From positions 1,749,001-1,813,000 of the forward strand of contig NC_083532.1 of assembly GCF_032362555.1 (NCBI RefSeq): a stretch of DNA of 64,000 nt, given 5' to 3'. Positions within the stretch are counted from its first letter, which is position 1; the number at the start of each line of letters is the position of its first letter. Below are positions 7,945 to 61,341 of the stretch, piece by piece. The notes beneath the pieces were generated by a model that searched no databases, was not told the DNA's origin, and worked only from the letters and a program-made list of their open reading frames with translations. The DNA comes from Amyelois transitella. Lineage: Eukaryota; Arthropoda; Insecta; Lepidoptera; Pyralidae. The translations under genes were made by a program, and so were the position numbers.

Positions 7945-21230
<13,286 letters not shown>

Positions 21231-24852: not shown

Positions 24853-25113
24853 TGGCCGTGCCGTGTGGTTCCCGGCACCATTACAAAAAAGAATAGGACC
24901 ACTCCATCTCTTTCCCACGGATGTCGTAAAAGGCGACTAAGGGATAGGCTAATAAACTTGGGATTCCTCTTTTAGGCGATGGGCTAGCAACCTGTCACTA
25001 TTTGAATCTCAATTCTATCACTAAGCCAAACAGCTGAGCGTGGCCTATCAGACTTTTCAAGACTAGGCTCTGTCTTCCCCGCTAGGGATATAGACGTGAT
25101 CATATGTATGTAT
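24853..25113 (+). mobile_element. Full-length TATG-SINE with 12 bp TSD
   Basis: Flanked by GGTAAACAGTTG at 24841-24852 and 25114-25125. It has a complete head, body and TATG tail, plus a few extra bases (TGGCCG) ahead of the head. It lies just upstream of the first COX7A-like gene in transcription terms. Confidence 0.9.
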
Positions 25114-25391
25114 GGTAAACAGTTGGTGTTTGCATGCACGTAAGTATGTATGGTGACGGATGTGATGCTCTTATCGTAATAGCAAAAATTTTGCAAGGAA
25201 TCTTGCACATTCAAGCAGAGAAATTAACGATGGACGGAAGTCAGTCGGGAGTAGCTTTTTGTAAAAAACTGGCTCACTCACTTCAAAAGCGTGGGCGTAG
25301 ATGGACCCACAGAGTACATTTGTCGGATGCCGTTCTCCACTGCGCAGACGCAACAAGGAATTACACCAAATGATGGTGATTCGAGAAGACA

Positions 25392-27007: not shown

Positions 27008-29458
27008 TTATATATCAAACCGTTCGAACGCCAGCGCCTTCCCTTCTTCCTCGTACTCTTCTTTCGTCATACAAAAAGAGTAGAAGTCTGGATCTCTGAA
27101 AATCTTCTTCCCACCCTCCCACGCATAAGTCAACGGCTTCTCAGCCAACGTCACGTTAACATCAAAGTGGTCCAACGCCAGACTTCTCACTTCATTGTAC
27201 ACTCTGTCTCTAAAACCTGGGAACAATGTATTGCCTCCATACATGACTATGTTTTCTAGCAGACTTTCTTTATTCTCCTCCGGGCAAGCGTCAATCGCGT
27301 GGATTACAGCTTCAGGGATCCCCATCTGGGGGATGCCAACGTCTGAGGGGTGGAACAGCAGCTCGGGGATGGAGAACCGTTCGTTGTTAAGCCGTAAGGT
27401 CTGTTGTTCCAGTTCCTCGTCAGGTTTGACGATTTCACGAAGATAGCCGCGCCGGAGTGATGTGTAGTCGGGTAGGACGTAGTCACGTACTATTGTGTTT
27501 TGTGGAGCTGAAATTGCAATAAAAATAACTAAGACCTTAACGGAAACATAATAAAAAACCAAAATATAAGTTTCAGATTCCTTTTCTTCAGATTTCACAG
27601 ATTGAGTTAGCCTTGAAGTCTATGATACTATATTTTACTAGCTGTGCCCGCGCCTGCCTCCGCATGTAATAGTTTATTGCCTCCTCGATAAATGGTCTAT
27701 CCAACACAAAAAGTATTTTTCAATTAGAATCAGTAGAGATTAGCGGCACAGAGGCCTTCATCCACTATCGTTTTATCAGCCATTAAGGTGCCATCAAGAA
27801 CATGGCGCAAAGATGTGAAAGATATGTGTGAGATTCCACCAAATTAACTGAGGTACCCATTTCTGTATCCTGGTCATCAATAATTGAAATACAGACTATT
27901 ATCATCCCCTTGGAATATGTCTTAATTGGTTCCTCACATGTCTCTGCCTACCCCTCCAGGAAAGAGGTAAAATTTATATAGGAGATGAAGAACTAAAGCA
28001 GTGGGCAGCTTTTCAAATTAAAACTTGTCAACAGCCCAATTTGAGGGAGAGGAGGCATGCACAGAGGATGAGAAATCTATGAGACACTTTATTACACAAA
28101 TAGAAAGCGACACCCTGGCTGGTATTCGAATGAGGCTCTTTGGATCGGCTTACTGCGATCTGGAGGACTGCTGGCTTTACGTAACAAGTAACATTGTGAA
28201 ATTCACGCAGTCCCTGTTCAGAGGGTGTGATAAGGGTGAATAATGCGTGGGGTTAGTACAATACAATCCAGAGTTTAAGATGCTTCTCGAAATCAGACGG
28301 TTGCTTGTAATATAAGAATGTAGGTCTTAAATTTTTGTCTAAATAATCCTATTAATATCCTACTACTATTATAAAGGCGAAAGTTTGTATGGATGTTTGT
28401 TACTCTTTCACGCAAAAACTACTGAACCGATTACCATGAAATTTGGTATGTAGGTAGCTGAAGACCCAGAATAACACATAGGCTACTTTTTATCCCAGAG
28501 TTCCCGCGGGATTGATAGGGTTTCCATGCGGACGAAGTCGCGGGCGGCCTCTAGTTATAAATGCAAAAGTTTGTGAGTATGTCAGTATGGATGTTTGTTA
28601 CTCTTTCACGCAAAAACTACTGAACCGATTAAGATGAAATTTGGTATGTAGGTAGCTAAAGACCCAGAATAACATATAGGCTATTTTTATCCCAGAGTAT
28701 TGAGTGTTGATATGGTTTCCATGTGGAAAAAGTCACAGATGGCCTCTAGTAAACAATAATAGTAGTTCCTTACCTTTCTTCCTTGCAAGCTCCATGTCGG
28801 CCATAAAGTCCTGAGACACAAAACACGAATCTTCTTTCACTTGATTGATTACATAAGTCTCGTCCATTACATTCAGCTGTCTGTACGAAATAATTTCTTT
28901 CAAATGATTCGTTAACACTTTACCACCCACATCAATCCTACGGATACCCTCTCTGTACTTCTTACCCTTTATGTACGGAACTATGTACGTATAACTATAA
29001 CCTGAGTCAATGACTACCGTACATTGGTTGTTATGGCTCTTCCGGTAGTTGTACTCGGCCAAATCAGTCGCGTTTACCCTTAGTAACGATTGACATTCAT
29101 ACTCTTCAAAAAAAATTTCGGTCATAGCCTCCTGTATAGACGCAAAATTGTATAATGGTTCGGTCACAATCAAAGGAGTTTCGTTGAAGTTGACGGGGCA
29201 GCATTCCTTGCTAAACATGTAGTCCCAAACAGTCTTTTGTGTATCCCAGTTGATCAGAAAACCTTTTTGAAAGGGCAATATGTAAAACAGACCCGATGCA
29301 TCACGGCATTCGTCTATCTGCGATCCTATGAACGGACGACGTCTTTCCGACTTAGCCTTCATTATACAGTTAGGCACTACCTTCGGCTCCATCGATGAAA
29401 AGCCCACTTTGGCTGTGTAAGCCCCATTGTCGAGGATATAGCAGGATGTTTCAGTCAT
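27008..29458 (-). CDS. Arp6: Actin-related protein 6 (Arp6), 2 exons
   Basis: A nuclear actin-fold protein, core subunit of SWR1/SRCAP-type remodellers that deposit H2A.Z. Exon 1 is 29458-28774 (228 codons plus one base) with donor GTAAGG. Exon 2 is 27507-27008, behind acceptor TTTCAG and in matching phase; total 394 aa, the family length. The N-terminus YILDNGAYTAKVGF is the actin phosphate-1 loop. TVVIDSGYSYTYIVPYI and IRRIDVGGKVLTNHLKEII follow in subdomain 3. ENIVMYGGNTLFPGFRDRV is the adenosine-loop motif, and YAWEGGKKIFRD lies near the end. Both junction and motifs agree. The 1.27 kb intron contains Helitron-like copies. Confidence 0.95.
27640..27740 (-). mobile_element. Helitron-like 3' fragment
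   Basis: Reversed GCGGGCACAGCTAGT-type end (ACTAGCTGTGCCCGC) followed by CCTCGATAAATGGTCTATCC, in the Arp6 intron. Confidence 0.6.
27741..28355. other. Arp6 intron, left part
   Basis: No confident feature. A 35 bp LINE tail fragment (CTCTGCCTACCCCTCCAGG) lies at 27938-27972. The open frame at 28025-28243 (72 codons) matches nothing I recognise and probably is an old repeat. Confidence 0.35.
28356..28750 (+). mobile_element. Two tandem Helitron-like elements
   Basis: 28356-28557 repeats the element at 16306-16512 almost base for base (TTACTCTTTCACGCAAAAAC to GGGCGGCCTCTAGT). 28558-28750 is a second, more diverged copy directly behind, again ending GGCCTCTAGT. Head-to-tail arrays are typical of Helitrons. 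Confidence 0.75.
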
Positions 29459-33423: not shown

Positions 33424-36400
33424 TTAGCCGCTGTTCTTCCTCAGCTGGTGTAGGACGACGAGGAAGGGTGCGGCGACGCCCGTGCCGAAGAAAAATAAGA
33501 AGTTTAATGTCAACCGCGTCCGATTGTAGATGTTGAAAGGCAGGTTCTGGAAAATAAACGGTTTATAATAAAATAGATGGTAAATATTCTATGCCTATAA
33601 TGTTCTATACTGTCTTCCGCCTTGGGAAAGAGGCGTGATTTATGTATGTTAATATTACATGATAAACAACACTACTAAATAACACAACAGGCGCAACAAA
33701 TTGCACGTAACGTGAGCGAAGCTACAAGTTTTATCCCAAAACGCAATTTTTTTTTTCTGAAGTTATAGAATCAAATAATGTAAGGTCAAGAATACCCGAA
33801 ACCGCCCAGCTCGCATGAAGAGAGTTATGAATGTGGATGAAGCGAAGGAAGTATGCAAAGATCGAGGCAAGTGGAAAGATGTAGTCTCGGCCTACCCCTC
33901 CGGGAAAACGGCGTGATTTTATGTTATGTTATAAAATAACTTCCAGATACAACTACGTTCTTTCTCTACTTTGGATAAAATAGTTCGGAGTCCAATGAAT
34001 GATTTCGAAATTAATACAAAACCTACCTATATGTTAATTTGATCTTATAGCGAGCTTCGCGTACCTAAATAGTGGATATATTTTTTTTATTCCTCATTAA
34101 CCGGCTCAATAAATTCCACCATTCCTGTTTCTGAGTTTAATGTCCTTTACGTGACCGTGGATAGTCCCCGCCCTTATTTTATGACTGTGCCCTTGAGGTA
34201 AGGGCGTGTTGACACGAATCAACAATAGGACATTTTCATAATTTCGTATGATTCCCGCGCGACACTTTATAAGTAAAAGGGCCACTTACTCTGTCTCTTA
34301 TCTCTTTTATAAATGCTTTATAAGGTACTCCTTCCTACATCGACAAATCTAAACTAAGTAAATAGGTTACTTTTTTCTTTTTAGACTGAAAGAAGCCGTG
34401 TGGTTCCCGGCACCAATACAAAAAAGAATAGGACCACTCCATCTCTTTCCCATGGATGTCGTAAAAGGCGACTAAGGGATAGGCTTACAAACTTGGGATT
34501 CTTTTTTAGTCGATGGGCCAGCAACCTCAACTAAAAGTCACTATTTGAATCTCAATTCTATCATTAAGCCAAATAGCTGAACGTGGCCATTCTGTCTTTC
34601 AAGACTGTTGGCTCTGTCTACCTTGCAAGGGATATAGACGCGACCATATGTATGTATGTATGTATGTAGAAGTTAAACGGGAGTAATTCCAAGTTAAACA
34701 TGTCTAATATTGGATTCAAACTTTAAATGTATGGAGCTAAAAAGAAGTGGCCGTGTGGTTCCCGGCACCATTACAAAAGAATAGGACCACTCCATCTCTT
34801 TCCCACGGATGTCGTAAGAGCCGACTAAGGGATAGACTTGGGATTCCTCTTTAATGTAAATCCCTGCCAATCTAAGGTCTGCCGCGCCGATGGATGCATG
34901 GCTAGGGGCGAGCCTAGTCTCGAGCGTGCCACTTCCGCCATGGGGTTGGGCGACCCCCAGGTAATGGCTAGCCTTACCCTGGCATGCGGGGCTCTGCTGG
35001 GGCGGACAAAATTTTTCCCTAGCGTCTCGTGGGAATCGCATGGATGCAAATTTTTTGAAAGAGCACCTAGATGGCGGCGATGGTGTCCGCACCCCATCAC
35101 GTCTCGTTCCCGGCGGGAGCGGTATGCGGTCTGCTGAAAGCCGCTTTGCGACGATGAATGTAAGAGGAGGAATGAAGGATAAGATTGAGGAAGTATGCCA
35201 GATGATGGATGAAAGACGTTTGGATGTGTTGTGCGTGAATGAAACGAAGCGGAAAGGATGCGACGCGACGCAGCACGGCCCTTACACGGCGTATTGGTCT
35301 GGAATTTCCAGTACCAGCCGAGGCTGTCAAGGAGTCGGTCTAATTCTTTCTGCACGAATGGCTGAGTGCGTGAATGAGTATGAGTGTGTCAGCCCTCGTC
35401 TTCTATGGATTAGGCTGAAAGTTGGAATCACTCGGATCTTCGTTCTAGGTGTTTATGCACCTTGGGATGTGGGTTCGAGGGGTACAACATCAGCAAAAAG
35501 CGAAAACGAGGAGTTCTGGAATAGTGTAAGAGAAGTATTGAAAGTTACCAAGCCAAATGAGAAGATTATTATGTTAGGTGATTTTAATGGATGGGTGGGT
35601 GTAAAGCGTGACGGATATGAAAAGGTGCTTGGTGCGTTTGGTGACGAAAAGGTGAATGATAATGGAAGAAGTGTATTAGAAATTTGTCTAGAGTGGGATC
35701 TTTTTGTGTCGAACTCAATGTTTCAACATAAAGAGATCCACACCTACACAAGAGTGGAAGGTATTTTAAAAAGTATGATAGACTTTGTGATTGTAGATGA
35801 AAGATTGAAGAACAAAGTGCTGGATACCCGTGCATATCGCGGTGCTGGCATTGACTCGGACCATTTACTGGTGATATCCCGGATAAGGGGTATCTTCAAT
35901 CGCTGGCGGCACAGGGTAAGGGAGCAAACCAGCGCTTTGGAAAGAGTAAAAGTAGAAAATTTGCAAGATATGGATGTAGGTAAGAAGTATATTAATAGAC
36001 TGAAGGATGAATTTGAAGATTTAGAGGAAATGAGCGATATTGAAGATGGATGGAAGGAATTTAAAAAAAGAATTGTGAAAGTAGCTGTTGAAGTGTGTGG
36101 TGTAAGTAGAAGAAGGAAAGGAAAAAATCACAAAAATGCGTGGATGAGTAAAGATGTGCAAGAACTTGTGCGATTAAAGAAGAAAGCATGGCTGGATTTG
36201 TTAGCAGCAAAAGCTAACTTAAGAATGCAAGAGGTTATAGATGAAGATGTGAATGAAGCACGTAAGGAATATAAGAAAATGAAAGATTTGGTTAAGAAAG
36301 CTGTGATTAGAAAGAAAGAAGAGTATAAAGAGGATTTTGATAAAAGGCTATCAGAAGACTTTCAGTCAAATCTGAAAGTATTCTGGAAATCCGTAAGGTC

Positions 36401-39287
36401 AGCCCGAGGAAATACTATAACCAGAGAGCTGACTAGGATCAGATGCCAGGATGGTAGCGTTGTGAAAGGAGAAGAATGTGTACTAAAGATATGGAAGGAC
36501 TATTTTGAAAGTTTATTTGAAAAAAAGGAAGGAAATAAGAAAGATTTCTGCTATAGCGAAGAAAAAGAGAATGAGATGGAAGGCGAAATTGAAATGTTCG
36601 AAATTGTGGAAGCACTTAAGAGTATGAAAGCGGGAAAGGCTGCTGGGTGTGATAGAGTGTCGGTCGAGATGCTTAAAGCAGGAAAAGGCGTAGTAGCTAG
36701 TCAGTTGTACTGCCTTTTCAATTTGTGTTGGAGAAGCGGCCGAGTACCAAAAGATTGGTGTAAGGCTGTTATCGTGCCACTTTACAAAGGAAAAGGGTCA
36801 CAGCTGGACTGCAAAAATTATCGTGGTATAAGCCTGCTTAGCGTCGTCGGCAAATTGTATGCTAAGGTATTGATTAATAGAGTCAGGAATGAAACTGATG
36901 ACAAAATATGGGATGCTCAAGCGGGATTTCGAAAGGGAATGGGATGTACTGATCAGGTCTTTTCCTTGCGGTGCATAGCCGAAAAGTTTTTGGCCAAGAG
37001 TCAAAAAGTCTATTGCACATTCGTAGATCTGGAAAAGGCCTATGACAGAGTTGAGAGGAATGAATTGTGGTCAGCACTTTCTATGCATGGGGTGAGCAGT
37101 CTCTTAATACGAGCACTGAAATCCTTATATGAGGATTCGAGTGCTTGTGTCAGGATAAACGGAGCGCACACTGAGTGGTTTAAGATTGAGAAAGGCGTTA
37201 GGCAAGGATGTGTTGCGTCACCGTGGCTGTTCAACCTATTTATGGATAGCTGTTTGACAGATTTGAAAGAGTCTAAAAGTGGATTAAGGATGAATGAGTT
37301 ACTCGTCAAATGTCTGCTCTATGCCGACGATCAGGTTATACTGGCGTCATCAGCGGAGGAGTTACAGGAGATGGTAAACTGTATGCATGAAGCTTTAAAA
37401 GAGAAAGGAATGAAAGTGAACGTAAGTAAAACTAAAACACTGGTTTTTGAAATGGAGAAAGAAATGACAGCATGTAATATTTTGATTGGAGGAGAAAAAG
37501 TGGAGCAAGTGAAAGAGTTTGTATATCTAGGATCAAAGTTTACATCAGATGGCAAGTATGATAGTGATATTGAAAGGAGAGTGAACGCGGGGAACATGGT
37601 GAATGGAGCTTTGCATGCCTTTATGAGCAGTCAGAAACTATCCAAAAAGGCTCGACTGGCTGTGCACAGGGGCGTGTTGGTCCCGACATTAATGTATGGG
37701 AGTGAAAGTTGGGTATGGCAAAAGAAACATGAAAGCAGAATAAATGCAGTGGAAATGAGAGCGTTAAGGAGTATGATGGGTGTGAAATTGAGTGACAGGA
37801 TAAGGAACAGCGTGATAAGGGAATGTTGTGATGTGAAAGAAGATGTAGTTACAGGAATAGAAAAGGGTATGTTAAGATGGTTCGGTCATGTGGAGAGGAT
37901 GAATGAAAGCAGGTTGACTAAGCAGATATACAAGGAGAGTGTGGAGGGAAAGGTCGGAGTGGGAAGACCTAGACGAACGTATCTTGATCAAATTAAGGAC
38001 GTCCTGGTAAAGGGTCAGGTCAAAAGTACCCGAAACCGCCGAGCTTGTATGAAGAGAGTTATGAATGTGGACGAAGCGAAAGAAGTATGCAGAGATCGTG
38101 GCAAGTGGAAAGAGGTAGTCTCTGCCTACCCCTCCGGGAAAGAGGCGTGATTTTATGTATGTATGTATGTATGTAAAAAGAAGTATGAAGCTGGGATTTT
38201 GTCCCAGTTGCGAACTCCTTGCGATTATGAGGAGGAGTCCTTGAGGAGTATCCTTTGGTAAGCGATTAGCCAACTGACGATAGTCTTTAGAAACGGCTAG
38301 GAGTGCATAGAAGACACATAATACATTGACCCTGACAACATAACACTTTTATTTACAGTCGCGTAATAGAGGCGTATGCACTAAAATACCAGTTTTATCG
38401 CACACCTACAGCGCTGTGCAAATATTTTTATAGCCAACTTGGTATTGTTCGGTCGAGTTGAATGCACACATACACACACACACGTTCATATATGAAAGTT
38501 TAACAATGCATTATCACACGGTATAATGTAAAAATATTTTGTTTGTAACGCTATTTGTAAGAAGGAAAACGATAAGATGAGTAGAATCGGTAGGATGAGC
38601 GACTTATTTTGAATACGCATAATTTTCATTCAATCTCAATAAGTAAGTAGACGATAAAATTAGGATAAATAACAACATGCTTTTGCCATGAATGCAATAG
38701 GAAATATGTTGGTACGATTATGTAGGTACTTAAAGTTATATTAAATTTAAGTTATTTCCTTGACAGGTTTTTAGTAGTTATTATTACATTACACACAGAA
38801 ATATTTGGAATGCCAAAACAGAAATTTAAGTATAATAAACACTATCTAAGTAATTCATAAAATCATTGTTATTTGGACACCTGATCTACCTACTTATGTA
38901 TTGATTGAATTGTTAGTAGGTAATTAAGAAATCTAAGTAGGTATATATTAAAAACTTCTGTTTATAATAATCAGGTAAAATACTTATTAAATTTCAATTA
39001 AGTAAAAATGAAAACCTTAATGACTCTCTCATCTTTGGATGTTCCCAATAGCACTCTCTTTTCGACATTTCTCACCACGTTTTCCGGACCTTAGAGTCTT
39101 TGTTATAACTTAACACCTCTAACTCCACATGGTATGATGTACTGATTACAATGGAAGTAGTATTACGTAACAAAAGAGAACTTACTTCGCCAGGAATACC
39201 TCCGTGGGAGTGGGAGCCATTTCTAATGAATTTCTTCATAACAACACGCCCAACTTGGTTCGAAATTCTTGCCACGGGTCCAAACAT
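33424..39287 (-). CDS. COX7C-like paralogue, 2 exons around a 5.6 kb intron
   Basis: Exon 1 is 39287-39186 (34 codons, ending RNGSHSHGGIPGE, donor GTAAGT) and exon 2 is 33546-33424 (40 codons plus stop, acceptor TTCCAG). It has the same phase-0 intron position as COX7C, so the two arose by DNA-level duplication, not by retroposition. The mature part has NLPFNIYNRTRLTLNFLFFF, then GTGVAAPFLVV and LHQLRKNSG; it keeps the SHSHGG-PGE-NLPF signature but differs in the helix and C-terminus, which lacks the terminal KK. Flies carry a comparable COX7C-like paralogue with testis expression, so a male-germline role is a reasonable guess only. The intron contains a full-length RTE LINE and other repeats. 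Confidence 0.88.
33612..33933 (+). mobile_element. Two RTE LINE 3' fragments
   Basis: 33612-33650 has only the last bases (GGGAAAGAGGCGTGATTTAT plus tail). 33782-33933 has ACCCGAAACCGCC through GAAGTATGCAAAGATCGAGG and a TATGTTATG tail. Confidence 0.7.
34394..34672 (+). mobile_element. TATG-SINE, full length
   Basis: AGCCGTGTGGTTCCCGGCAC to GATATAGACGCGACCATATG with four to five TATG units. It lies 76 bp upstream of the full-length LINE, in the same orientation. Confidence 0.8.
34749..38173 (+). mobile_element. Full-length RTE-clade LINE, intact, 11 bp TSD
   Basis: 3425 bp between TAAAAAGAAGT at 34738-34748 and 38174-38184. Its 5' leader is about 290 bp, and the first ~105 bp are homologous to the TATG-SINE head, with a GTGCCG/CGGCAC hairpin. 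One uninterrupted ORF follows, then a short 3' end (GGGAAAGAGGCGTGATTTTA) and (TATG)n. It is inserted in the intron of the COX7C-like gene, opposite to that gene's direction. Confidence 0.93.
35040..38150 (+). CDS. RTE LINE protein: AP endonuclease plus reverse transcriptase
   Basis: 1036 aa. The APE-type endonuclease nicks target DNA: N40 (ATMNVRGG), E68 (CVNETK), LGDFNGW near 180 and IDSDHLL near 272. A Lys/Glu-rich linker follows (about 300-500). The reverse transcriptase contains GKAAGCDRVSVEML, VPLYKGKG, NYRGISLLSVVGKLYAKVL, FVDLEKAYDR near 662, GVRQGCVASPW near 718 and catalytic YADDQ near 761. The C-terminus has WFGHVERM and GRPRRTYLDQIKD and no RNase H. A single ORF with APE and RT, a short 3' end and a microsatellite-like tail defines the RTE clade. 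All catalytic motifs are intact, so the copy looks competent. Confidence 0.95.
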   Translation: MDANFLKEHLDGGDGVRTPSRLVPGGSGMRSAESRFATMNVRGGMKDKIEEVCQMMDERRLDVLCVNETKRKGCDATQHGPYTAYWSGISSTSRGCQGVGLILSARMAECVNEYECVSPRLLWIRLKVGITRIFVLGVYAPWDVGSRGTTSAKSENEEFWNSVREVLKVTKPNEKIIMLGDFNGWVGVKRDGYEKVLGAFGDEKVNDNGRSVLEICLEWDLFVSNSMFQHKEIHTYTRVEGILKSMIDFVIVDERLKNKVLDTRAYRGAGIDSDHLLVISRIRGIFNRWRHRVREQTSALERVKVENLQDMDVGKKYINRLKDEFEDLEEMSDIEDGWKEFKKRIVKVAVEVCGVSRRRKGKNHKNAWMSKDVQELVRLKKKAWLDLLAAKANLRMQEVIDEDVNEARKEYKKMKDLVKKAVIRKKEEYKEDFDKRLSEDFQSNLKVFWKSVRSARGNTITRELTRIRCQDGSVVKGEECVLKIWKDYFESLFEKKEGNKKDFCYSEEKENEMEGEIEMFEIVEALKSMKAGKAAGCDRVSVEMLKAGKGVVASQLYCLFNLCWRSGRVPKDWCKAVIVPLYKGKGSQLDCKNYRGISLLSVVGKLYAKVLINRVRNETDDKIWDAQAGFRKGMGCTDQVFSLRCIAEKFLAKSQKVYCTFVDLEKAYDRVERNELWSALSMHGVSSLLIRALKSLYEDSSACVRINGAHTEWFKIEKGVRQGCVASPWLFNLFMDSCLTDLKESKSGLRMNELLVKCLLYADDQVILASSAEELQEMVNCMHEALKEKGMKVNVSKTKTLVFEMEKEMTACNILIGGEKVEQVKEFVYLGSKFTSDGKYDSDIERRVNAGNMVNGALHAFMSSQKLSKKARLAVHRGVLVPTLMYGSESWVWQKKHESRINAVEMRALRSMMGVKLSDRIRNSVIRECCDVKEDVVTGIEKGMLRWFGHVERMNESRLTKQIYKESVEGKVGVGRPRRTYLDQIKDVLVKGQVKSTRNRRACMKRVMNVDEAKEVCRDRGKWKEVVSAYPSGKEA
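38185..39185. other. COX7C-like intron, 5' part
   Basis: No gene. It contains a CACACATACACACACACACG microsatellite near 38464 and many TAGGTA words, but no element that could be delimited. Confidence 0.4.
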
Positions 39288-43400: not shown

Positions 43401-45907
43401 TCAGGAACTACTGGTTCGAATTGAAAAATTATTTTTGTGTTGAATAGACCATTTATCGAGAAAGGCTTTAGGCTATATAACATCAGTAATAAATAACACT
43501 TATAAACAAAATTAAATTTTGGCGAGTTTACTTTTCTTTTTACTTGGTAGGTATGTCAGAAATAAAAAGATATCTCGACTTTAGATGACGTATTTAAAAA
43601 AAAAAACCTTATATTAAAACCGTTTTGGTTCATTCAGTACATCAGATATTTTTATGATAAATTTATTTTATCTGCCATAGAAATGCAATAACATTTTTTT
43701 TGTACAAGATTAAGATCTTTAGCCGTCACATACTTAGTCAATTAATATAAAATACCAATACACTACACACTTACAGTGAGGGAAAACATCGTGGGGATAC
43801 CTACACATTCAGGCAAATGTATGTGTAACAGTTAATCGAATATGGGTTAGGTTTACCTGCAAAGGTTGCCGAGTCGCTTCGTGTAAAACACCTGACTCAC
43901 CCAATCCAGGATCCATGGTCGAAGGCAAATGTTTTTTTTTCCAAATTCAAATCTCTTTATTGCGGTAACAAAGGTAGAAAAGATGATACAAAACAGGCAT
44001 ACCCCGGGCTCCTCTCCAGAGAGGTGAGGATGCGACCGGGACTAAAGCCAGGTGGAAGAGACGAAAGAAAGAAAGAAAGAAAAATATTTTATTTGATATC
44101 ACAAACTTAACTATACTAAGTAACAGATTTTACAATTTGTGCGTTTTTGTGACGAGACGAATACACTACATTTGTTCTCTTATGTGCCGTGTGGTTCCCG
44201 GCACCAATACAAAAAAGAATAGGACCACTCCATCTCTTTCCCATGGATGTCGTAAAAGGCGACTAAGGGATAGGCTTACAAACTTGTGATTCTTTTTTTA
44301 GGCGATAGGCTAGCAACTTGTCACTATTCGAATCTCAATTCTATCTTAAAGCCAAATAGCTGAACGTGGCCTATCAGTCCGCGCAGGACTGTTGGCTCTG
44401 TCTACCCCGCAAGGGATATAGACGTGATTATATGTATGTATGTTTGTTGTTCTCTTATTTCTTTATTTTCCAGGCGGAAGTAGAGCAGCCCCCGCCCCCG
44501 CCGCCCGTGGAGGAGAAGCCGCGCGAGAGCAAGCCGGCGGCGTACGTGCCGCCCGTTCAGCGCGTGCGCCCCGCCGAGCCGCTGCGCCGGAACCAGGCCG
44601 TGAGTAGACCGCCTTACAGGTGGAGGGGGAACTGACAGTGGTGAAGCAAGGCCGTGTGGCTAGCTGAGCCGCTGAACAAGAGTGTACCATCTGTTAAGAT
44701 CCTACAGTGACTTTCTTCTTCTTCTTCCGCCTAAGTATATATAGAAGTATATCAGCTAAAAGAAAATCCACGTCAGGCCTGAAGAGCCATTAGATAGATA
44801 AAACTCTTTATTGCACCATAAGAGTAAAACATACAAAACAACACAAAGCAGATATAGATGGTACAAAGGCGGACTTATCGCTAAAGCAATCTCTTCCAGT
44901 CAACCTTTGGGTGGAAGGAAGTCAAACAGGCCATTGTGGGGAACCAGGCTGTGAGTATACCGGCTGTCTACCTCCTAGTCCTCGCAGGTGGAGGAGGAAC
45001 TGACAGTGGTGAAGCAAGGCCGTGTGGCTAGCTGAGCCGCTGGACAAGAGTGTACCATCTATTAAGACCGTCCCGCCTAAGTGGAAGTATATGTATAAGC
45101 TGATGGTGACTGGTTAAAATTTGCAATGCGCAGATAGGCATAGGTTCGAATCCCACCTCGGTCATATGACTATCGTGACCAATGACTATTTTCGAAGTTA
45201 TGTACATTAGTTTGAATATTAACCAATGCTCTTGCTGTGAAGGAAAACATCGTGACGACTGACGACTGCCCATTCAGGCAACTGGATCTGTAACCATGAT
45301 CGATCCAATACTGGTAAGGTTCACCTGCAAAGTTGCGGAGGTCAGACAGGAGTCGCTTCGTGTGAAAACCTGACTCACCTAATACACTGTGCCGTGAACC
45401 GATACAAATAAGAATAGGACCACTCCATCTCCTTTCCATGGATGTCGTAAAAGGAGATTAAGGGATAGGCTTACAAACTTGAGATTATTTTTTTGGCGAT
45501 GGGCTAGCAATTTGTCACTATTTGAATCTCAATTCTATCATTAAGCCAAATGGCTGATCGTGGCCATTCAGTCCTTTCAAGACTGTTGGCTTTGCCTACC
45601 CCGCAAGGGATATAGACGTGACCATATGTATGTATGCATCCAACACACGATCAAAGGCATTAGATTCATAGTGCGCTGCTCTAGTGTAGTAAATAATGAT
45701 GATGATGTGACAATAAATAAATAAATATTGTTTGTATTTTAGAAACACGCGCCCGACATCCACAACGACGACTCGTTCCCGGTGCTGGGCGCGGGCGGCA
45801 AGCGCGGCGGCTGGAGCACGGCGGCCGGCAGCGGAGCCCTGCCGCCGCCGCCGCGCCAGCCGCTAGCGCTCGGCAACCGGTTCACCTCGCTGCAGGACGA
45901 CAGCTAG
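40429..45907 (+). CDS. CDV3: CDV3 homologue, 4 main exons plus a possible 9-nt microexon
   Basis: CDV3 (carnitine deficiency-associated gene 3 product) is a conserved, mostly disordered cytosolic protein of unclear function. Exons: 40429-40602, possibly 42631-42639, then 43012-43176, 44474-44599 and 45743-45907; all phase 0, about 212 aa with the microexon. Signatures are MADLDDFFAKKDRKKSK at the N-terminus, EEEEWKEYEEPVKDYTGLKI, GPWNKP, a proline block (QPPPPPP), AAYVPPVQRVR and DIHNDDSFPVLG with RFTSLQDDS at the end. They are collinear with the animal family (DNFFAKRDKKK, WKELE-VDYSGLR, GPWNK, FPSL). TATG-SINEs lie directly in front of exons 43012 and 44474. A further GT donor after the stop (45911) and an AG at 46570-46571 point to a 3' UTR intron. 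Confidence 0.92.
40603..42630 (+). other. CDV3 intron 1
   Basis: AT-rich 2 kb with no recognised repeat or ORF of note, remarkably free of the repeats that fill the downstream CDV3 introns. Confidence 0.5.
42631..42639 (+). other. Candidate 9-nt CDV3 microexon
   Basis: GGTGTAAAG (Gly-Val-Lys, phase 0) is framed by CTTATTACAG and GTAATT. Reading frame is kept whether it is used or skipped. Confidence 0.45.
42790..42995 (+). mobile_element. TATG-SINE, 5'-truncated
   Basis: From CATCTTTCCCATTGATGTCG to GATATAGACGTGACTACATG. Its tail lies about 16 bp before the acceptor of the 43012 exon. Confidence 0.7.
43357..43480 (+). mobile_element. Helitron-like 5' part
   Basis: CTATACTAATATTATAAAGC, GTGCTAATCTCAGGAACTAC and GAATAGACCATTTATCGAGA, the same family as 398-663 in reverse. 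Confidence 0.6.
43780..44065 (-). mobile_element. SINE-like repeat with a nested ~70 bp insertion
   Basis: AGGGAAAACATCGTG, ACATTCAGGCAAATG, GCCGAGTCGCTTCGTG and CCTGACTCACCCAATCCAGG match the SINE at 45095-45385. An unrelated piece (CAAATCTCTTTATTGCGGTA) interrupts it at about 43931-43998. Orientation is tentative. Confidence 0.45.
44184..44446 (+). mobile_element. Full-length TATG-SINE with 12 bp TSD at a splice acceptor
   Basis: Flanked by TTGTTCTCTTAT at 44172-44183 and 44447-44458. The right copy of the duplication is part of the polypyrimidine tract of the CDV3 acceptor at 44472-44473. Confidence 0.9.
44795..44930 (-). repeat. Probable LINE 3'-end fragment
   Basis: CTCTTTATTGCACCATAAGA, GGTACAAAGGCGGACTTATC and AATCTCTTCCAGTCAACCTT are wording I know from the 3' ends of Jockey-type moth LINEs. 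Family assignment is from memory. Confidence 0.4.
44937..45075 (+). pseudogene. Pseudo-exon: duplicate of the 3' end of CDV3 exon 4
   Basis: GGGAACCAGGCTGTGAGTAT, then GGAACTGACAGTGGTGAAGC, GTGTGGCTAGCTGAGCCGCT and AGAGTGTACCATCTATTAAG repeat 44588-44700. It includes only the last codons of the exon, the donor and about 90 intron bases. No acceptor. Confidence 0.8.
45095..45385 (+). mobile_element. SINE-like repeat with tRNA-type B box
   Basis: GCATAGGTTCGAATCCCACC is a good B box near the 5' end, followed by GGTCATATGACTATCGTGAC and a body ending CCTGACTCACCTAATA. Related pieces at 43780-44065 and 13232-13520. Confidence 0.55.
45388..45640 (+). mobile_element. TATG-SINE
   Basis: GTGCCGTG head shortened, the rest collinear to GGGATATAGACGTGACCATA plus tail. 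Confidence 0.7.
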
Positions 45908-49116: not shown

Positions 49117-49133
49117 GTACTTGCTTCGGCAGT

Positions 49134-49173
<40 letters not shown>

Positions 49174-49223
49174 GGCCCCTGCGCAAGGATGACACGCAAA
49201 ATCGTGAAGCGTTCCACATTTTT
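49117..49223 (+). ncRNA. U6: U6 spliceosomal snRNA
   Basis: 107 nt from GTACTTGCTTCGGCAGTACA to the T run. It has every U6 hallmark: the 5' stem-loop, ATACTAAAATTGGAACGATA, the ACAGAG box, AGATTAGCATGGCCCCTGCG with the AGC triad, and GATGACACGCAAAATCGTGA for the internal stem-loop. It ends TTCCACATTTTTT, a pol III terminator. U6 pairs with U4 and U2 and forms the catalytic core of the spliceosome. The 5' stem has GTAC/GTAC in place of GTTC/GAAC, a paired change that keeps the helix. The upstream TATA box argues for a working gene, not one of the many U6 pseudogenes. Confidence 0.95.
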
Positions 49224-49371: not shown

Positions 49372-49640
49372 GGTGCCGTGGGGTTCCCGGCAACAATAGA
49401 AAAAAGAATAGGACCATTCCATGTCTTTCCCATGGATGTCGTAAAACGCCTAAGGGATAGGCTTTTATACTTGGTATTCTTCTATTAGGCGATGGGCTAG
49501 CAACCTGTCACTATTTGAATCTCAATTCTTTCTTTAAGCCAAATATCTGAACGTTGATAGGCCACGTTCAGCTATTTGTCTTTTCAAGACTGTTGGCTCT
49601 GTCTACCCCGCATGGGCTATAGACGTGACTATATATACAT
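49372..49640 (+). mobile_element. TATG-SINE with internal rearrangement
   Basis: A head with GTGCCGTGGGGTTCCCGGCA, then a normal 5' half. Near 49540-49575 a short reversed piece (GATAGGCCACGTTCAGCTAT) is inserted before the 3' end. Confidence 0.65.
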
Positions 49641-49961
49641 ATAATTATGTGCCCCTTTTGAAATAGAACAAATAAAATGAATTAGCTTAATAAGTCTTTA
49701 CCAAAATACTTTTCTCTATAATATAAGTAAGTATGGAATGGCGTTCATATAAAAATCGTTTTTTGAGTAGGTAGGTTAGGTATAGATATTCTCTTTTAAT
49801 GTAAGTAATTATTTACGTTTCTATGGGCATACCCGCAGAAATCGGAATAATTCATTTCATAATTACCTAATAATACCTATCTTAGACTTAGATCCTAAAG
49901 GAAAGATTCTAGTTAGAACAGAAGAAGATTAGGCTAGTAGGTACTTACTGGCTTTAATAAA

Positions 49962-54235: not shown

Positions 54236-54496
54236 TTGCCGTGTGGTTCCCGGCACCAATACAAAAAAGAATAGGACCACTCCATCTCTTTCGCATGGAT
54301 GTCGTAAAAGGCGACTAAGGGATAAGTTTACAAACTTGGGATTCTTTTTAGGCGATGGGCTAGCAACCCTGTCACTATTTGAATCTCAATTCTATCATTA
54401 AGCCAAATAGCTGAACGTGGCCATTCAGTCTATTCGAGACTGTTGGCTCTGTCTACCTCGCAAGGGATATAGACGTGACCATATGTATGTATGTAA
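54236..54496 (+). mobile_element. TATG-SINE, full length
   Basis: The head TTTGCCGTGTGGTTCCCGGC to tail is complete. Flanks GTAAACAAACGTTTT (left) and GTAAACAAAACGTCTT (right) look like an imperfect target-site duplication. Confidence 0.8.
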
Positions 54497-57884: not shown

Positions 57885-57896
57885 TATACTTTTTAC

Positions 57897-60800
57897 ATAC
57901 ATACATACATACATAAAATCACGCCTCTTTCCCGGAGGGGTAGGCAGAGACTACCTCTTTCCACTTGCCACGATCTCTGCATACTTCTTTCGCTTCGTCC
58001 ACATTCATAACTCTCTTCATACAAGCTCGGCGGTTTCGGGTACTTTTGACCTGACCCTTTACCAGGACGTCCTTAATTTGATCAAGATACGTTCGTCTAG
58101 GTCTTCCCACTCCGACCTTTCCCTCCACACTCTCCTTGTATATCTGCTTAGTCAACCTGCTTTCATTCATCCTCTCCACATGACCGAACCATCTTAACAT
58201 ACCCTTTTCTATTCCTGTAACTACATCTTCTTTCACATCACAACATTCCCTTATCACGCTGTTCCTTATCCTGTCACTCAATTTCACACCCATCATACTC
58301 CTTAACGCTCTCATTTCCACTGCATTTATTCTGCTTTCATGCTTCTTTTGCCATACCCAACTTTCACTCCCATACATTAATGTCGGGACCAACACGCCCC
58401 TGTGCACAGCCAGTCGAGCCTTTTTGGATAGTTTCTGACTGCTCATAAAGGCATGCAAAGCTCCATTCACCATGTTCCCCGCGTTCACTCTCCTTTCAAT
58501 ATCACTATCATACTTGCCATCTGATGTAAACTTTGATCCTAGATATACAAACTCTTTCACTTGCTCCACTTTTTCTCCTCCAATCAAAATATTACATGCT
58601 GTCATTTCTTTCTCCATTTCAAAAACCAGTGTTTTAGTTTTACTTACGTTCACTTTCATTCCTTTCTCTTTTAAAGCTTCATGCATACAGTTTACCATCT
58701 CCTGTAACTCCTCCGCTGATGACGCCAGTATAACCTGATCGTCGGCATAGAGCAGACATTTGACGAGTAACTCATTCATCCTTAATCCACTTTTAGACTC
58801 TTTCAAATCTGTCAAACAGCTATCCATAAATAGGTTGAACAGCCACGGTGACGCAACACATCCTTGCCTAACGCCTTTCTCAATCTTAAACCACTCAGTG
58901 TGCGCTCCGTTTATCCTGACACAAGCACTCGAATCCTCATATAAGGATTTCAGTGCTCGTATTAAGAGACTGCTCACCCCATGCATAGAAAGTGCTGACC
59001 ACAATTCATTCCTCTCAACTCTGTCATAGGCCTTTTCCAGATCTACGAATGTGCAATAGACTTTTTGACTCTTGGCCAAAAACTTTTCGGCTATGCACCG
59101 CAAGGAAAAGACCTGATCAGTACATCCCATTCCCTTTCGAAATCCCGCTTGAGCATCCCATATTTTGTCATCAGTTTCATTCCTGACTCTATTAATCAAT
59201 ACCTTAGCATACAATTTGCCGACGACGCTAAGCAGGCTTATACCACGATAATTTTTGCAGTCCAGCTGTGACCCTTTTCCTTTGTAAAGTGGCACGATAA
59301 CAGCCTTACACCAATCTTTTGGTACTCGGCCGCTTCTCCAACACAAATTGAAAAGGCAGTACAACTGACTAGCTACTACGCCTTTTCCTGCTTTAAGCAT
59401 CTCGACCGACACTCTATCACACCCAGCAGCCTTTCCCGCTTTCATACTCTTAAGTGCTTCCACAATTTCGAACATTTCAATTTCGCCTTCCATCTCATTC
59501 TCTTTTTCTTCGCTATAGCAGAAATCTTTCTTATTTCCTTCCTTTTTTTCAAATAAACTTTCAAAATAGTCCTTCCATATCTTTAGTACACATTCTTCTC
59601 CTTTCACAACGCTACCATCCTGGCATCTGATCCTAGTCAGCTCTCTGGTTATAGTATTTCCTCGGGCTGACCTTACGGATTTCCAGAATACTTTCAGATT
59701 TGACTGAAAGTCTTCTGATAGCCTTTTATCAAAATCCTCTTTATACTCTTCTTTCTTTCTAATCACAGCTTTCTTAACCAAATCTTTCATTTTCTTATAT
59801 TCCTTACGTGCTTCATTCACATCTTCATCTATAACCTCTTGCATTCTTAAGTTAGCTTTTGCTGCTAACAAATCCAGCCATGCTTTCTTCTTTAATCGCA
59901 CAAGTTCTTGCACATCTTTACTCATCCACGCATTTTTGTGATTTTTTCCTTTCCTTCTTCTACTTACACCACACACTTCAACAGCTACTTTCACAATTCT
60001 TTCTTTAAATTCCTTCCATCCATCTTCAATATCGCTCATTTCCTCTAAATCTTCAAATTCATCCTTCAGTCTATTAATATACTTCTTACCTACATCCATA
60101 TCTTGCAAATTTTCTACTTTTACTCTTTCCAAAGCGCTGGTTTGCTCCCTTACCCTGTGCCGCCAGCGATTGAAGATACCCCTTATCCGGGATATCACCA
60201 GTAAATGGTCCGAGTCAATGCCAGCACCGCGATATGCACGGGTATCCAGCACTTTGTTCTTCAATCTTTCATCTACAATCACAAAGTCTATCATACTTTT
60301 TAAAATACCTTCCACTCTTGTGTAGGTGTGGATCTCTTTATGTTGAAACATTGAGTTCGACACAAAAAGATCCCACTCTAGACAAATTTCTAATACACTT
60401 CTTCCATTATCATTCACCTTTTCGTCACCAAACGCACCAAGCACCTTTTCATATCCATCACGCTTTACACCCACCCATCCATTAAAATCACCTAACATAA
60501 TAATCTTCTCATTTGGCTTGGTAACTTTCAATACTTCTCTTACACTATTCCAGAACTCCTCGTTTTCGCTTTTTGCTGATGTTGTACCCCTCGAACCCAC
60601 ATCCCAAGGTGCATAAACACCTAGAACGAAGATCCGAGTGATTCCAACTTTCAGCCTAATCCATAGAAGACGAGGGCTGACACACTCATACTCATTCACG
60701 CACTCAGCCATTCGTGCAGAAAGAATTAGACCGACCCCTTGACAGCCTCGGCTGGTACTGGAAATTCCAGACCAATACGCCGTGTAAGGGCCGTGCTGCG

Positions 60801-61341
60801 TCGCGTCGCATCCTTTCCGCTTCGTTTCATTCACGCACAACACATCCAAACGTCTTTCATCCATCATCTGGCATACTTCCTCAATCTTATCCTTCATTCC
60901 TCCTCTTACATTCATCGTCGCAAAGCGGCTTTCAGCAGACCGCATACCGCTCCCGCCGGGAACGAGACGTGATGGGGTGCGGACACCATCGCCGCCATCT
61001 AGGTGCTCTTTCAAAAAATTTGCATCCATGCGATTCCCACGAGACGCTAGGGAAAAATTTTGTCCGCCCCAGCAGAGCCCCGCATGCCAGGGTAAGGCTA
61101 GCCATTACCTGGGGGTCGCCCAACCCCATGGCGGAAGTGGCACGCTCGAGACTAGGCTCGCCCCTAGCCATGCATCCATCGGCGCGGCAGACCTTAGATT
61201 GGCAGGGATTTACATTAAAGAGGAATCCCAAGTCTATCCCTTAGTCGGCTCTTACGACATCCGTGGGAAAGAGATGGAGTGGTCCTATTCTTTTGTAATG
61301 GTGCCGGGAACCACACGGCACTGCCGGGAACCACACGGCAC
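57897..61341 (-). mobile_element. Full-length RTE-clade LINE, intact, second copy
   Basis: Same family as 34749-38173, in reverse, with a (CATA)n tail on the left. TATACTTTTTAC at 57885-57896 and 61351-61362 is the likely target-site duplication, with about 9 extra bases between it and the 5' end. The 5' end carries the GTGCCGTGTGGTTCCCGGCA head twice in a row. Confidence 0.92.
57919..61029 (-). CDS. RTE LINE protein, second intact copy
   Basis: 1036 aa, identical to the 35040-38150 product except Glu for Lys at residue 343 (FKERIVKV versus FKKRIVKV) in the linker between endonuclease and reverse transcriptase. At least two silent base changes also separate the copies. All endonuclease and YADD reverse-transcriptase motifs are kept. 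Confidence 0.95.
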   Translation of the reverse strand: MDANFLKEHLDGGDGVRTPSRLVPGGSGMRSAESRFATMNVRGGMKDKIEEVCQMMDERRLDVLCVNETKRKGCDATQHGPYTAYWSGISSTSRGCQGVGLILSARMAECVNEYECVSPRLLWIRLKVGITRIFVLGVYAPWDVGSRGTTSAKSENEEFWNSVREVLKVTKPNEKIIMLGDFNGWVGVKRDGYEKVLGAFGDEKVNDNGRSVLEICLEWDLFVSNSMFQHKEIHTYTRVEGILKSMIDFVIVDERLKNKVLDTRAYRGAGIDSDHLLVISRIRGIFNRWRHRVREQTSALERVKVENLQDMDVGKKYINRLKDEFEDLEEMSDIEDGWKEFKERIVKVAVEVCGVSRRRKGKNHKNAWMSKDVQELVRLKKKAWLDLLAAKANLRMQEVIDEDVNEARKEYKKMKDLVKKAVIRKKEEYKEDFDKRLSEDFQSNLKVFWKSVRSARGNTITRELTRIRCQDGSVVKGEECVLKIWKDYFESLFEKKEGNKKDFCYSEEKENEMEGEIEMFEIVEALKSMKAGKAAGCDRVSVEMLKAGKGVVASQLYCLFNLCWRSGRVPKDWCKAVIVPLYKGKGSQLDCKNYRGISLLSVVGKLYAKVLINRVRNETDDKIWDAQAGFRKGMGCTDQVFSLRCIAEKFLAKSQKVYCTFVDLEKAYDRVERNELWSALSMHGVSSLLIRALKSLYEDSSACVRINGAHTEWFKIEKGVRQGCVASPWLFNLFMDSCLTDLKESKSGLRMNELLVKCLLYADDQVILASSAEELQEMVNCMHEALKEKGMKVNVSKTKTLVFEMEKEMTACNILIGGEKVEQVKEFVYLGSKFTSDGKYDSDIERRVNAGNMVNGALHAFMSSQKLSKKARLAVHRGVLVPTLMYGSESWVWQKKHESRINAVEMRALRSMMGVKLSDRIRNSVIRECCDVKEDVVTGIEKGMLRWFGHVERMNESRLTKQIYKESVEGKVGVGRPRRTYLDQIKDVLVKGQVKSTRNRRACMKRVMNVDEAKEVCRDRGKWKEVVSAYPSGKEA

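Follow-up and report, generated by a model that had tools for sequence, protein, structure and literature searches.

The 64-kb window analysed here (C28:1749001-1813000, in a genome of 327 Mb and 33 contigs) holds an abundant repeat of about 260 bp whose two ends resemble those of a full-length LINE in the same stretch. This raises the question of where the short element acquired its 5' part (head) and its 3' part (tail), and which protein mobilises it. We think it likely that the repeat is a non-autonomous bipartite, SIDE-like derivative of an RTE-type LINE family, which originated in an older sibling lineage and is mobilised in trans.

Full-length LINE and short element in the window

We found two full-length LINE copies of 3.4 kb, each with one ORF of 1036 aa. 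A domain search of the ORF of copy 1 detected Exo_endo_phos followed by RVT_1 (E 3.8e-41). The 5' UTR measures about 290 bp, whereas (TATG)n follows the ORF with hardly any 3' UTR in between. RTE elements are recognised by these features, i.e. a single ORF with an APE endonuclease and then a reverse transcriptase, and a 3' UTR that is very short and closes with simple repeats; the anatomy also agrees with that of lepidopteran RTE elements in the portions covered of PMC2887409, and suggests that the host belongs to the Lepidoptera. We assigned the LINE to the RTE clade because of this domain order and the short, repeat-ended 3' UTR, and not on the basis of a tree; the best relatives of its protein in PDB were L1 and R2 proteins. 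An antisense ORF (34825-35355) had no match in the Pfam search.

The median pairwise difference among 21 LINE copies was 0.15%, and the 1036-aa ORF was open in 18 out of 22 copies read, which were best hits and thus a sample biased to young copies. These values from a best-hit sample, together with the 387 exact genome occurrences of the LINE head word, suggest that the LINE has been amplifying in a burst until very recently. In two LINE copies (copy 2 of the window and L067) the first ~20 nt of the head were repeated immediately upstream, and a few other elements (L077 and those at 11732 and 24860) carried an extra CCGT or GCCGT; these additions may reflect template jumping at the RNA 5' end. 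A variant pattern of the LINE 5' UTR was present at 53 places, 23 of them on C32 (12.4 Mb of the 327-Mb genome); this contig may be a sex chromosome rich in repeats.

A profile of the short element, built from eight copies, gave 47 matches in the window, 41 of which were short elements. They merged into 36 loci, many of them fragments and 11 reaching both ends, and covered 6137 bases (9.6% of the window). The initial annotation was right that copies are numerous, but its figure of about 28 copies or fragments has to be replaced by this count. The consensus was 258 bp long, including a little (TATG)n, and the profile also matched LINE heads (E 7e-30) and LINE 3' ends (E 3e-5). That the short element outnumbers the LINE was borne out genome-wide by exact head words (2049 and 387 occurrences, respectively), these being words of 62-64 bases, counted whatever follows them, whose numbers favour young copies. 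Between the two ends, the body of ~90 bp was no nearer to the window LINE than shuffled sequences (25 out of 50 scored as high), as expected for foreign sequence; this comparison covered the window LINE, and its siblings not in full. Compared with the window LINE, the short element is not a strict SIDE, i.e. a pure internal deletion with ends joined without foreign sequence. The AGTCTT/AAGACT mini-hairpin pointed out earlier is present in the consensus, but a function for it found no support in covariation among the copies (114 out of 132 pairs were conserved, as many as in shuffles on average). Searches in viral contigs, prokaryote contigs, phages and plasmids returned no useful relatives.

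Inside some short elements or heads (13523-13790, 49375-49642 and L029:2237-2372), part of the head or body was duplicated in inverted, fold-back orientation. In one head-only copy (L002:1246-1343) the head ended near column 93 and ran directly into (TATG)n, without body or tail. The window also contains a transposase ORF of 303 aa with Pfam Transposase_1 and DDE_3 domains (19393-20304, minus strand), presumably a mariner, and two exon-like ORFs of an actin-family protein (27008-29458, minus strand), which we take to be ARP6.

Table 1. Positions of the LINE copies, short elements and related features in the window.
Feature	Position	Strand	Details
Short bipartite element	34394..34668	+	head 34395-34508, body ~34509-34611, RTE tail 34612-34644, then (TATG)n
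5' target-site duplication TAAAAAGAAGT, LINE copy 1	34738..34748	+	
Full-length RTE-type LINE, copy 1	34749..38176	+	
LINE head common to the short element	34750..34854	+	
Remaining LINE 5' UTR, absent from the short element	34855..35039	+	61% G+C over LINE positions 106-291
LINE ORF, 1036 aa: endonuclease (Exo_endo_phos) then reverse transcriptase (RVT_1)	35040..38150	+	
LINE tail, related to short-element tail	38121..38150	+	overlaps last codons and stop
3' target-site duplication TAAAAAGAAGT, LINE copy 1	38174..38184	+	
Full-length LINE, copy 2	57893..61319	-	ORF 57919-61029; 4 substitutions vs copy 1
Extra partial head copy (first ~20 nt)	61320..61341	-	directly upstream of LINE copy 2, within its target duplication
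Short element with LINE-type head states	24860..25114	+	3 of the LINE's 6 diagnostic states (columns 22, 59, 108)
Near-consensus full-length short element	44186..44447	+	target duplication TTGTTCTCTTAT
Near-consensus full-length short element	54238..54495	+	
LINE 3' fragment, 5'-truncated	17996..18787	-	98% identical
Older LINE 3' fragment, LINE-type tail	33780..33929	+	90% identical

Shared ends and their source

The first ~105 bp of the LINE are common to the short element, as had been proposed. LINE positions 2-105 aligned to the short-element consensus with a score of 152, a value reached by none of 1000 shuffles (best shuffle 27), and the two heads differed by 6 substitutions in 105 columns (99 out of 105, 94% identical) and by gaps of 2 and 8 bp. 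The similarity could have been produced by short elements inserted beside LINEs, and we excluded this case: an 11-bp duplication (TAAAAAGAAGT) flanks LINE copy 1 on either side and lies outside the head, and the head was the starting point of all 20 further copies read. In particular, a genome-wide search with the LINE 5' end gave 40 scored matches (the best 40 of 2378 candidates, including the window copy), 99-100% identical and beginning with the first base of the element or a few bases ahead of it. All 20 further copies that were fetched began at the head, GCCGTG (GCCGTGTGG), and 19 of them spanned the whole element with 3-10 mismatches, L069 being the exception. A target duplication of at least 9 bp, 0-15 bases from the head, was found in 15 of these 20 copies. 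The crossed control was made for the window elements, where duplications of at least 9 bp were present in 7 out of 12 elements (2 of 2 LINEs and 5 of 10 short elements) vs 6 out of 132 crossed pairs. As all fetched copies start at the head and target duplications lie outside it, we conclude that the head belongs to the LINE as its genuine 5' end. Half of the short elements examined in the window (5 out of 10) thus bear this hallmark of retrotransposition; the other five gave no clear duplication, and none was found for the element at 34394..34668.

The 3' ends are also alike, more weakly than the heads. Without the TATG repeat, 32 bp of the LINE and short-element tails aligned with a score of 27, above all of 2000 shuffles (best shuffle 25). 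The tail of the window LINE differed from that of the short element at 8 out of 34 columns, vs 6 out of 105 in the head (Fisher p 0.006), and none of the 91 short elements with readable tails carried its tail type. In a possible tail stem, one pair was changed on both sides between the LINE and short-element families, with a covariation score reached by 56 out of 500 shuffles, and RNAalifold did not predict the stem.

Better counterparts of both ends were found on other RTE copies of the same genome. The tail word of the short element, downstream of AAGTGG, had 57 genome matches: most look like diverged short elements, and five lay at the exact spacing of the LINE ORF end. Upstream of the tail, these five copies were 63/71 to 188/197 identical to the LINE ORF, and their tails scored 90, 45, 67, 56 and 48 against the short element vs 49, 43, 49, 36 and 32 against the LINE, nearly tied in L086 (45 vs 43). 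In L085, an ORF 188/197 identical to that of the LINE runs abruptly into a tail 45/45 identical to the short element's. At the other end, a head with GGCGAC was joined to a LINE 5' UTR word at 15 genome places, three of them with the window LINE's length of 58 bases and 12 with 64 bases. The same 12 heads recurred in two further searches with 5' UTR/ORF-start words (17 and 53 places), at the window-LINE spacing (11 and 162 bases). In the four of the 12 whose letters were read (the last 45 bases), the 8-bp gap of the window LINE was absent and the head continued to TTTTAGGC, differing from the short-element consensus at a few sites. The five tail-matching copies were not located at the 12 gap-free head places, and a single parent with both matching ends was not seen.

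The tail matches and the gap-free heads place the short element's tail and head layout on sibling RTE copies and not on the window LINE. The proposal that the two ends of an RTE-type LINE were combined on either side of foreign sequence thus holds, since both ends occur on RTE copies of this genome, but its narrower form, a chimera built from the intact LINE of the window, is not supported: the tail diverges far more than the head, and other RTE copies carry the short element's tail type and the gap-free head. As far as the sequences allow, the window's intact LINE would be a younger sibling of the short element's source, and neither its direct parent nor its best partner.

The direction of transfer has to be considered as well, since the head could have been a SINE module first, which the LINE took over from an older short element by 5' end replacement. 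The much closer match of the heads than of the tails (6/105 vs 8/34) would fit such a capture. So would the short element at 24860-25114, three of whose five head changes are common to the LINE (chance ~2e-5, for an element picked after the fact among 19 heads), and the 185 exact genome occurrences of a head word with two of these states (22 and 59), whatever follows each. On the other hand, at least two LINE subfamilies carry the head on the same 5' UTR, so it was not a one-off capture by a young LINE; the short-element tail is also RTE coding sequence; and states 22 and 59 occurred together in 1 out of 53 short-element heads read, that of 24860-25114. None of ten gap-free LINE head places on C1-C17 was among the 100 listed of the 185 two-state places, which extend through C18. 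We consider head capture unlikely, and transfer from LINE to short element would be the more probable direction.

Still less probable, in our view, is that LINE and short element form one modular pool, with RTE subfamilies and the short element exchanging heads and tails in either direction; this reading is suggested by the short element with LINE-type head changes together with the L085 ORF that runs into a short-element tail. If true, the parasite would also re-equip its host LINE, and the head common to both would represent a novel type of small start module, one that sets the 5' base and needs no Pol III promoter to do so.

Transcription start and mobilisation

Rfam searches of two short elements and one LINE head gave no match to tRNA, 5S or 7SL families up to E 10; an unrelated family was matched once, at chance level (E 4.3), in the LINE 5' UTR. 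At curated Rfam thresholds the whole window yielded only U6 and two tRNAs, none of them in a head. The U6 spliceosomal RNA is full length (49117-49223, plus strand, 117.9 bits), and the two tRNA-His(GTG)-like sequences have low scores (15162-15233 and 17615-17686, both plus strand; 30.9 and 37.4 bits). Of the A/B box consensus, 9 out of 15 positions were matched in the short-element head, and 298 out of 300 shuffles were as good or better (293 out of 300 for the LINE head). A run of at least four T was present at the head-body junction in 20 out of 24 short-element rows (two of the 26 rows, being LINE rows, were set aside, and the count covers profile columns). The lack of RNA-gene matches, the poor A and B boxes and the T run make a Pol III origin of the short element unlikely, and the earlier remark that no tRNA, 7SL or 5S promoter is visible is upheld.

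We rejected the class of tRNA-derived SINEs (SINE2) for the short element, whose head does not resemble a tRNA with its A and B boxes. An ordinary tRNA-derived Pol III SINE with a head that merely resembles the LINE's would be similar in length and abundance to Metulj, which was described as such (~267 bp, 8.22% of its genome, in the excerpted text of PMC4016481 and PMC6685494). The 94% identity of the heads, the absence of a tRNA model match, A and B boxes equalled or bettered by nearly all shuffles, and the T run ahead of the body, which is expected to stop Pol III, make this origin very improbable.

A self-cleaving HDV-like ribozyme in the head, freeing both RNAs at GCCGTG as in R2 and L1Tc, would account for the common start base of the LINE copies read (20 out of 20), and in some LINEs, as in the short elements derived from them, the 5' end is set by such a ribozyme (PMC3774820 and PMC4035085, in the portions covered). 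The fold of the nested double pseudoknot was sought with a descriptor made by ourselves from general rules and published descriptions, which had no match in either head (0, 1, 20 and 23 of 200 shuffles with a match). The fold energy of the heads equalled that of shuffles (z 0.26 and -0.13), with no recognised RNA structure, and there was no Rfam ribozyme match up to E 10. With all three lines negative we rejected the ribozyme, and a promoter with a fixed start accounts for the same ends; we give this reading hardly any credence. That the short element may borrow the LINE promoter is a fair inference.

Regarding mobilisation, an RTE protein probably moves the short element in trans. The element would have arisen in an older sibling RTE lineage through internal deletion or template switching. 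Its head would allow its RNA to share the 5' nucleotide of the LINE RNA, without a recognisable Pol III promoter, and the RTE protein would take up the tail in trans for target-primed reverse transcription, leaving (TATG)n ends and target duplications, which measure 9-13 bp in the copies that have them.

The initial annotation had named the protein of the window LINE itself as the mobilising one, a claim that is not supported as written. This young LINE could be moving the short element at present: the head is shared, the tail is related, and most LINE copies read (18 out of 22) keep the open 1036-aa ORF. Moreover, a body word of the short element lies near a LINE tail at 14 places (letters seen for two), which could be re-tailed copies. 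Against this, none of the 91 readable short-element tails is of the LINE type, and the short elements read lie at least 3.3% from their consensus (a small sample), whereas LINE copies are 0.15% apart (a best-hit sample). The former figure comes from 53 short elements with head and body, taken from the window and 63 fetched loci (L025 and L084 overlap), which lay 3.3-20.2% from their consensus and whose nearest neighbours differed by at least 3.3%. Some close short-element pairs (L036/L054) look like local duplicates. We regard current mobilisation by the window LINE as doubtful.

Relation to known systems

Bipartite derivatives of LINEs are known from several clades, and the following comparisons draw on portions of the cited papers. 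One of them in Lepidoptera is Persaeus, a SIDE of the CR1 LINE Zenon (PMC6740152), in which the two ends of the LINE likewise enclose a centre unrelated to it, and which also has a high copy number and lacks a Pol III promoter; its parent is a CR1 element with poly(A) ends, unlike the RTE-like parent with (TATG)n and almost no 3' UTR found here. RTE derivatives that unite the 5' and 3' ends of their LINE in one short non-autonomous element have been described in mammals (MAR4, RTESINE1, Bov-A2 and RTE1-N1_LA; PMC3747384) and in hagfish (RTE-2 and RTE-4 derivatives; PMC7245038), all of them vertebrate and likened here by description, not by sequence. R2 SIDEs (PMC3414825) and RIME/NARTc of ingi/L1Tc (PMC4035085) also keep both ends of their LINE and have a shared 5' module; they belong to other LINE clades, and their 5' module is a ribozyme, of which none was found here (in RIME/NARTc it is also a promoter).

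Among lepidopteran elements with an RTE connection, HaSE1 of Helicoverpa (described with HaRTE1) is a SINE with an RTE 3' tail, but it has a tRNA head, a (TGA)n tail and a 386 bp consensus (PMC3272025). RTE-5_PGo of the pink bollworm is an RTE copy with an internal deletion of ~1 kb (PMC6522560), described as one 1.75 kb copy and not as an amplified short family. Metulj of Heliconius resembles the short element in length and high abundance and in an RTE partner suspected by the 3' end; in PMC6685494 that partnership rests on the 3' end, and the portions covered of PMC4016481 and PMC6685494 do not mention a shared 5' end. It differs in being described as tRNA-derived and limited to heliconiines, whereas the head here has no tRNA signal. 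Compared by description only, the short element may correspond to the SINE published as Metulj. The titles and abstract openings searched named no amplified RTE SIDE from Lepidoptera, which leaves room for one in print, and words of the element sequence had no lepidopteran match in the papers searched, where they hit two versions of an unrelated article on bird feathers.

The short element is thus a new member, or possibly one already known under the name Metulj, of an established type of LINE derivative. As an insect example it is a clean one: the element is non-autonomous and very abundant, its ends come from a LINE and it has no Pol III head, and the genome contains 387 exact copies of a sibling LINE's head, which makes the roles of head and tail testable. 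If the short element is Metulj, the tRNA origin of the Metulj family would need revision.
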